From contig DAOUQC010000037.1 of NCBI GenBank assembly GCA_030625775.1, positions 1-43,389 of the forward strand: a stretch of DNA of 43,389 nucleotides, given 5' to 3'. The position numbers were made by a program, and so were the translations under genes. Shown piece by piece: positions 28,793 through 29,648 of this stretch (its first letter is position 1; every line of letters begins with the position of its first letter). Below the pieces are notes generated by a model. That model ran no database searches and was not told the origin of the DNA. It saw only the letters and a list, made by a program, of their open reading frames with translations. The DNA comes from Verrucomicrobiota bacterium. Lineage in GTDB: Bacteria; Verrucomicrobiota; Verrucomicrobiia; Verrucomicrobiales; DEV007.

Positions 28793-28820
28793 CAGCTTTT
28801 CCGTATGACACAAAATTTTC

Positions 28821-28849
28821 TTGTGTGACGGTAAAAGTCGACTTAGTCT
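28821..28849 (+). promoter_or_regulatory. Candidate sigma-70 promoter of the riboswitch transcript
   Basis: TTGTGT (28821-28826) and TAGTCT (28844-28849) are 17 bases apart. This predicts transcription starting near 28856, exactly where the P1 stem of the downstream RNA begins. The boxes are weak matches, but the agreement with the RNA 5' end supports the call. An ACACAA/TTGTGT inverted repeat overlaps the -35 box. Confidence 0.4.
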
Positions 28850-28853
28850 TCGA

Positions 28854-29058
28854 GCAAGCATCAGGAGTGGTTTTACTTGAAAGAGTGGAATCCGGCAACC
28901 TGGCGATGGAGAAGCCAAGGTGCCTTGGGAGCAGCAATGTTCCCGATGTGCGAGTAGTCCGGTTCGGTTGAACGGGGCGATCTCGAACAGTAATTCTCCA
29001 GTGGAGCGAAAAGGAATTTTCGATGACCGCCGATCCTGATGAGGACGGCGGTTTTTTT
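28854..29058 (+). ncRNA. SAM-I/SAM-IV clan riboswitch with expression platform
   Basis: The conserved core elements of S-adenosylmethionine aptamers occur in order. A P1 strand GCATC (28858-28862) is followed by the AGGAG junction (compare AAGAG in SAM-I) and P2 (28869-28893, stem GG..ACTT-GAAA-GAGT..TCC). Then come GGCAACC (28894-28900), the P3 hairpin TGGC-loop-GCCA (28901-28917), GGTGCC (28919-28924), P4 GGGA...TCCC (28927-28944) and the returning P1 strand GATGT (28945-28949). P2 lacks the SAM-I kink-turn. The P3 loop holds GGAGAA (28908-28913), which exactly complements TTCTCC at 28994-28999. A P3-loop-to-3'-tail pseudoknot is the hallmark of SAM-IV and SAM-I/IV variants. A hairpin (28959-28976) and an intrinsic terminator complete the platform, so ligand binding would be read out by termination before 29127. 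Confidence 0.8.
29026..29058 (+). terminator. Strong intrinsic terminator of the riboswitch platform
   Basis: ACCGCC pairs with GGCGGT (29026-29031 with 29047-29052). The inner stem TCCT/AGGA closes a GATG loop, and a run of seven T's follows at once (29052-29058). It is 68 bases upstream of the next start codon, the position expected of an attenuator. Confidence 0.92.
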
Positions 29059-29126
29059 GTATTCTTTTTTCGGCTTCATGACAGGACTGGTGTGATTGGA
29101 AATAAGGACTGACCAAATCACATATC

Positions 29127-29408
29127 ATGACATACGAAGACATATTACAAGGATCAAGGGCAGAGACAGGGCCCTCGGGTGCCGATCAGGGGGCGACAAG
29201 TCTTGTCGACCGGAAAGACCGGCTCGCCGTGAGAGTGAATTTTACTAATCCAGATCATCATTTGTGGAATAACCGTGGAACCTGGTGGTGTCATTTCACC
29301 TTGCACAAGTCTGACTACACGGCTCATCGGGTGAGGGTGTCCCTCAAGACAAGGGATCAGGCGGAAGCCCGTATCCGTCGCGATGAAGTGCTGGCGGCAA
29401 TCGCATGA
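29127..29408 (+). CDS. Small conserved protein downstream of SAM riboswitch, Arm-domain-like
   Basis: A 93-residue protein. Residues 1-35 look disordered; the rest (HHLWNNRGTWWCHFTLHKSD, then RVRVSLKTRDQAEARIRRDE) resembles the N-terminal Arm DNA-binding domain of tyrosine integrases: a three-stranded sheet with 'G.Ww..f' and 'R...SLkT.d..eA...rd'. No catalytic integrase domain follows, so it is not a recombinase remnant of normal length. I recall short free-standing proteins of this form in Verrucomicrobia, of unknown function. No clear ribosome-binding site precedes the ATG. It is the only gene directly behind the SAM-type riboswitch and terminator, with no obvious link to methionine or methylation. 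Confidence 0.72.
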   Translation: MTYEDILQGSRAETGPSGADQGATSLVDRKDRLAVRVNFTNPDHHLWNNRGTWWCHFTLHKSDYTAHRVRVSLKTRDQAEARIRRDEVLAAIA

Positions 29409-29471: not shown

Positions 29472-29648
29472 ATGGAGAGCGAATCATTATTAAAAAGCCG
29501 GCTGAGGGGAGGTCAACGACGTTTCCTGCTAAGAGGCCTTTCTCCGTTGCCGGAAAATTTTCAGCAATGGCCCCGGGCAATGAAACTGCGCTTTTTGCGG
29601 CAAAGGGCTGGTGGAAATTTGTCTTATCCGGTCAGATCAAGTGGGTGA
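29472..29648 (+). CDS. Doubtful short basic open frame
   Basis: A possible 58-residue product rich in Arg and Leu (KSRLRGGQRRFLLRGLSPLP), starting 63 bases after the preceding gene. Its last 25 bases overlap the 3' end of the oppositely oriented ppk2 gene. There is no good ribosome-binding site and no recognised domain. It might be a real small gene cotranscribed behind the riboswitch, or chance. Confidence 0.25.
   Translation: MESESLLKSRLRGGQRRFLLRGLSPLPENFQQWPRAMKLRFLRQRAGGNLSYPVRSSG

Follow-up and report, generated by a model that had tools for sequence, protein, structure and literature searches.

This study focused on why an RNA resembling a SAM riboswitch should stand in front of a gene for a small protein, when the known targets of SAM riboswitches are mainly enzymes and transporters of methionine metabolism. 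The window, meaning the whole stretch of DNA analysed, comprised 43,389 nt of the forward strand of contig DAOUQC010000037.1 (assembly GCA_030625775.1) from a Verrucomicrobiota bacterium (DEV007), in which a leader of about 270 bases precedes a 93-residue ORF (29127-29408, plus strand). Comparison of sequences makes it likely that this leader belongs to the SAM-I/IV class and works as a SAM-responsive OFF switch, acting on a conserved small-protein gene by way of an anti-P1 platform.

Anatomy and class of the aptamer

The aptamer occupies positions 28854-29002 of the plus strand. The core elements listed by a sequence-only reading of this DNA were all where it had placed them: AGGAG, the P1 strands GCATC (28858-28862) and GATGT (28945-28949), GGCAACC (28894-28900) and GGTGCC (28919-28924) within P3 (28894-28924), and the P3 loop (L3) GGAGAA (28908-28913), the exact complement of TTCTCC in the 3' tail (28994-28999), with which it forms a pseudoknot. 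The remaining stems are P2 (28869-28893), a P4 hairpin (28927-28944), and P5 (28951-28985), which lies 3' of P1. Both the fold and the alignment gave P2 as a continuous hairpin with neither internal loop nor kink-turn, and a stretch slightly longer than the aptamer folded 4.2 standard deviations below its shuffles.

Covariance models gave a divided answer, with the window falling short of the Rfam cut-off and several of its relatives exceeding it. When the whole window was scanned at gathering thresholds, no Rfam family reached its cut-off. A permissive scan of 351 bases aligned RF01725 (SAM-I-IV) over its full model length to 28853-29001, with 39.9 bits (E 3.1e-5), 1.2 bits under the gathering cut-off of 41.1; the weaker overlapping matches belonged to the same clan. 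RF01725 matches were present in 13 of 57 related genomes, seven of them above the cut-off (best, 47.5 bits). The SAM-I model (RF00162) matched neither the window's own genome nor its 56 relatives, while the control genomes did match. A covariance model was also built from 37 aligned RNAs taken from in front of the small-protein gene, and scored the window, one of its training sequences, at 103.6 bits.

For the same alignment RNAalifold predicted 31 pairs, and in 20 of these both sides had changed at least once; P2 to P5 and the pseudoknot between L3 and the 3' tail all covaried. The pairing of the pseudoknot halves with their own partners was reached by none of 20,000 permutations with swapped partners, a count that is not an exact probability, and is weakened as a test, since the relatives are kin and not independent.

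SAM-I riboswitches carry a kink-turn in P2, and are without P5 and the 3'-tail pseudoknot. The RNA shares with them (RF00162) the ligand-binding core common to both, its P1 to P4 surrounding the conserved junction and P3 in the sequence and in the covarying alignment. With SAM-I/IV (RF01725, 4L81) it shares the order of P1 to P5, a P2 lacking an internal loop, the L3/3'-tail pseudoknot, and the junction and P3 core; it differs in the variable lengths of P4 and P5, which lower the Rfam score, in its small-protein target, and in its two downstream anti-P1 sites. The class was set out in a 2010 paper, which describes a P2 without internal loop or kink-turn (PMC2864571). The crystallised SAM-I/IV RNA 4L81 (sequence given in PMC5393176) showed when read by eye the same stem order as the window RNA, including P4, a hairpin that the sequence-only reading had passed over, so P4 appears to be normal architecture. 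The RF01725 match, the relatives above the cut-off, and the covariation of stems and pseudoknot together supported, at the level of sequence comparison, the earlier assignment to a SAM-I/IV-type riboswitch aptamer.

The RNA-gene pair and its surroundings

When run on 384 genomes of the class, the model built here detected the RNA in 88, with 105 matches listed. At 70 of these, a gene for the small protein lay downstream in the same orientation, no more than 202 bases away, and eight further pairs were found by reading the sequence; one match with the gene 656 bases away was excluded because another RNA stands between. The RNA thus directly precedes the small-protein gene in at least 78 of the 105 matches, some of the others being interrupted by contig ends, as happens at some loci in a collection where many genomes are metagenome bins. 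Protein relatives were present in 23 of 57 related genomes, including 12 of the 13 with an RF01725 match. A profile made from 15 relatives found 388 places in GTDB genomes and placed the protein in 147 of the 384 class genomes; among the matches listed (80 of 388), nearly all were from Verrucomicrobiota, including Akkermansia, Luteolibacter, Haloferula, and Rubritalea. The description of the protein as an orphan does not hold, as its pairing with the RNA is usual in the class and persists across families. One large family retains the gene without the RNA, which counts against the preferred explanation. A literature search of partial coverage returned no paper on the association, of which the additional files of PMC2864571 may hold an earlier mention.

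The 93-residue ORF is real: 15 columns were invariant among 38 diverse relatives, and the core NPxHHLWNNxGxWW..HxTxH..R.R.SL.T....AR.RRD, after which the family is called HHLWNN here, was strongly conserved. Its earlier description as Arm-domain-like was weakly supported. Of 38 members, 36 gave weak matches to Pfam DUF6538, the best at 2e-5, and two matched Arm-DNA-bind_3; NCBIfam has no family for the protein. The AlphaFold2 models, with mean pLDDT of 77 and 75, consisted of three strands plus a helix, but fold searches with the 93-residue model and a 74-residue relative gave no significant match, and 3ju0, the arm-type domain from the HAI7 integrase (Z 4.3, 2.4 Å, 51 residues), was tied in Z with unrelated folds. 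The predicted order of three strands then a helix, and the weak profile matches, are shared with the Arm-type DNA-binding domain of tyrosine integrases, from which the HHLWNN protein differs in being free-standing and without a catalytic domain; its model weakly resembles such a domain standing alone. The only matches in a profile search of solved structures, to designed beta-propellers and WD-40-type chains over about 27 residues, were judged to be chance. A phage or plasmid origin was rejected, as neither collection gave a match and only two loci were found among 2.9 million viral contigs.

The gene is followed at 29472-29648 (plus strand) by another tiny ORF, which bears the motif LPENFQQWPRAM; such an ORF lies downstream of the gene in most relatives of the same family, and of 63 RNA-bearing loci, 32 had its motif, [LIV]PxNFxxWPxxM.

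Upstream of the aptamer is a promoter-associated element (28804-28823, plus strand) consisting of TATGACA (28804-28810), nine bases, and CTTG (28820-28823). Of 92 leaders, 77 contain TATGACA, nearly always 48-50 or 58-60 bases upstream of the aptamer, two distances that differ by about one helical turn; it is perhaps an activator site. It is absent before the metH copies of the RNA described below (L222-L224). At HHLWNN genes without the RNA it was present in six of 64, against 2.4 expected, with no clear tie. An operator of a wide regulon was rejected, as the CTTG-spaced form is confined to this locus and other matches lie in open frames. At four Akkermansia-type loci (L098, at about 2830-2920; L109, L112, and L142) the HHLWNN gene follows rpmB, and a long hairpin leader stands behind a conserved TTTTGAACG. 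Rfam gave no match in the Akkermansia-type leaders sampled, which are possibly another kind of structured leader.

The same RNA also stands before other genes. In one family (genomes G060, G075, and G105) it precedes metH, in some cases separated from it by a single small ORF, an identification of metH confirmed by Pfam for L222, and a profile search of the class genomes found no HHLWNN gene in any of the three. In another family, copies precede a gene for a ThiS-family sulfur carrier, and further copies precede a MoxR-type ATPase or uncharacterised genes. The MoxR-type AAA ATPase is directly behind the RNA in L247, and behind the HHLWNN gene in L246. Locus L244 carries a pair of SAM-I/IV-type RNAs in the same orientation (394-527 and 971-1107), one preceding the HHLWNN gene and the other an uncharacterised 86-residue ORF. 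Methionine genes are also neighbours of the protein gene: in about 13 loci among relatives of the window, a divergent metH lies upstream of the riboswitch, and an enzyme of the Cys/Met-metabolism PLP type is upstream of the gene in 22 Akkermansiaceae-type loci where the gene has no RNA, with one example of each confirmed. Inspection by eye of same-family relatives showed an AT-rich, palindrome-like sequence of the type ATATCAACATATC..GATATNTTGATAT before metH (L255, L256, L263, L264, L269, and L270), at which another regulator of the methionine cycle, such as SahR, perhaps binds.

The expression platform and its alternatives

The new part of the finding is the putative anti-P1 expression platform. 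The P1 5' strand and the start of J1/2 read GCATCAGGA (28858-28866), within which CATCAGGA (28859-28866, plus strand) is the exact 8-base complement of TCCTGATG (29034-29041), a match that by itself, as the window's single one of 8 bp, had a p of 0.04. The complement forms part of the inner stem and loop of an intrinsic terminator, a bulged hairpin with a T run (29026-29058), which a generic terminator scan missed but the fold revealed; this terminator ends 68 bases before the ATG at 29127, exactly where a strong terminator had been proposed. A second site, CTGGTGT (29087-29093), can form 7 bp with the P1 5' strand, two of them G-U, and overlaps the 5' arm of a start-codon hairpin (29091-29099/29113-29122) that ends four bases before the ATG. 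This inverted repeat is palindromic, and conserved among the leaders compared.

The complementarity of the P1 5' strand to its leader, as computed here, is conserved and covaries. Among 85 leaders with the gene, whose start codons were chosen by rule, 82 had at least one anti-P1 stretch of 6 bp or more, and 35 combined a terminator site with a later anti-P1 site. The best Watson-Crick run had a median of 8, against 5.0 in dinucleotide shuffles, and the strand scored 8.25 against its leader, compared with 5.8 against upstream and 5.7 against coding DNA of its own locus. With each distinct P1 strand used once, the native pairing was matched by 15 of 20,000 swapped permutations, again among kin. 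Compensated changes were seen in L164 (CATTACGA with TCGTAATG), L146 (GCATTCCGA with TCGGGATGC), and L170 (CGCATCACGA with TCGTGATGCG). The P1 3' strand was discarded as the switching strand, its complementarity being at background (5.70 against 8.28 for the 5' strand).

A palindromic, conserved repeat before the ATG and a weakly Arm-like product would also suit a different arrangement, in which the aptamer is SAM-I/IV and the terminator its only platform, while the CCTGATG stretches and the inverted repeat are protein-binding sites, either a DNA operator or an RNA hairpin, for example for autoregulation by the small protein. This reading is rather improbable, however, as the stretches track the changes of the P1 strand in L164 and L146, and the metH copies of the RNA carry the same anti-P1 platform although the search found no HHLWNN gene in their genomes.

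How an anti-P1 platform might operate was explored with minimum-energy folds of growing transcripts, a model in which pseudoknot, ligand, and kinetics play no part. With the transcript ending at 29041-29049, the antiterminator pairing was the best fold, ahead of P1 by 4 to 10 kcal/mol. The terminator won when it was complete at 29052, P1 plus terminator being 2.9 kcal/mol better than the antiterminator. The second anti-P1 pairing belonged to the best fold from 29093 to 29122, and at 29130 it differed by no more than 0.1 kcal/mol from the combination of P1 and the start-codon hairpin. In the proposed mechanism, P1 would be weak without SAM, and 28859-28866 would pair with TCCTGATG in the nascent terminator, delaying termination; later, the P1 5' strand would pair with CTGGTGT before the gene and leave the start codon open. 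With SAM, P1 and the pseudoknot of L3 with the 3' tail would close, and the freed downstream strands would form the terminator and the start-codon hairpin, turning the gene off. By stabilising P1, SAM would therefore favour both OFF hairpins, and its absence both ON pairings. The riboswitch probably shuts off the small protein by two such linked RNA traps.

That the ligand is SAM, how far and in which direction expression responds, and in what order the RNA folds are what we infer from these comparisons. Given the unusual target gene, the aptamer might have drifted to another ligand on a SAM-I/IV scaffold, such as SAH or a SAM-related compound. This is quite unlikely, since 4L81 has, by eye, the same AGGA or ACGA junction, the same GGCAACC/GGTGCC, and the same U-A and A-U pairs in P1; SAM is further supported as the ligand because other copies of the RNA precede metH or the ThiS-family gene. 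The sequence-only reading had offered two outcomes, of which a new member of the SAM regulon was supported. The other, a terminated leader RNA acting in trans with the small ORF incidental, is very improbable: beyond the defined short RNA that a strong terminator would yield, nothing favoured it, the conserved complementarity is inside the leader itself, the gene stays beside the RNA across families, and 43 of 85 leaders had no terminator by a strict T-run criterion that misses interrupted T runs, 40 of these having an anti-P1 site before the start codon.

Precedents and significance

The preferred reading, an OFF switch with an anti-P1 platform, has a precedent. In the TPP riboswitch of Escherichia coli thiC, the aptamer's 5' portion pairs with a distant downstream stretch close to the start codon, in an anti-P1 stem that excludes P1 and the sequestering stem, and both transcription and translation are controlled (PMC5234074). 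At the sequence level the window RNA likewise has a P1 5' strand complementary to downstream sites, in a pairing that would exclude P1 and free the start region. The two differ in aptamer, and while thiC uses Rho-dependent termination, the window RNA would use an intrinsic terminator with a second anti-P1 copy. A review defines P1-regulated riboswitches by the P1 3' strand (PMC11477058); because the thiC stem already provides a precedent for use of the 5' strand, the platform is not a new kind.

Among the leaders of this class, nature provides a series of platforms (double, terminator-type, and start-codon-type), seemingly driven by the same P1 5' strand, which is useful for the study of how riboswitch platforms evolve. 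Many of these SAM-I/IV-type RNAs are concealed by the Rfam cut-off. The main SAM-I/IV target in a whole bacterial class is an unnamed small protein, and the riboswitch ties its family to methionine metabolism, giving a first functional handle. From the weak fold evidence and the gene neighbours, the most likely guess is that the protein is a small regulator that binds nucleic acid and acts in the SAM/methionine network. More tentatively, and with the balance of probability against it, the HHLWNN protein may be a class-wide, DNA- or RNA-binding regulator whose amount is set by the SAM riboswitch, so that the SAM level is relayed to methionine genes such as metH, which in most of these genomes would be genes without a riboswitch of their own.
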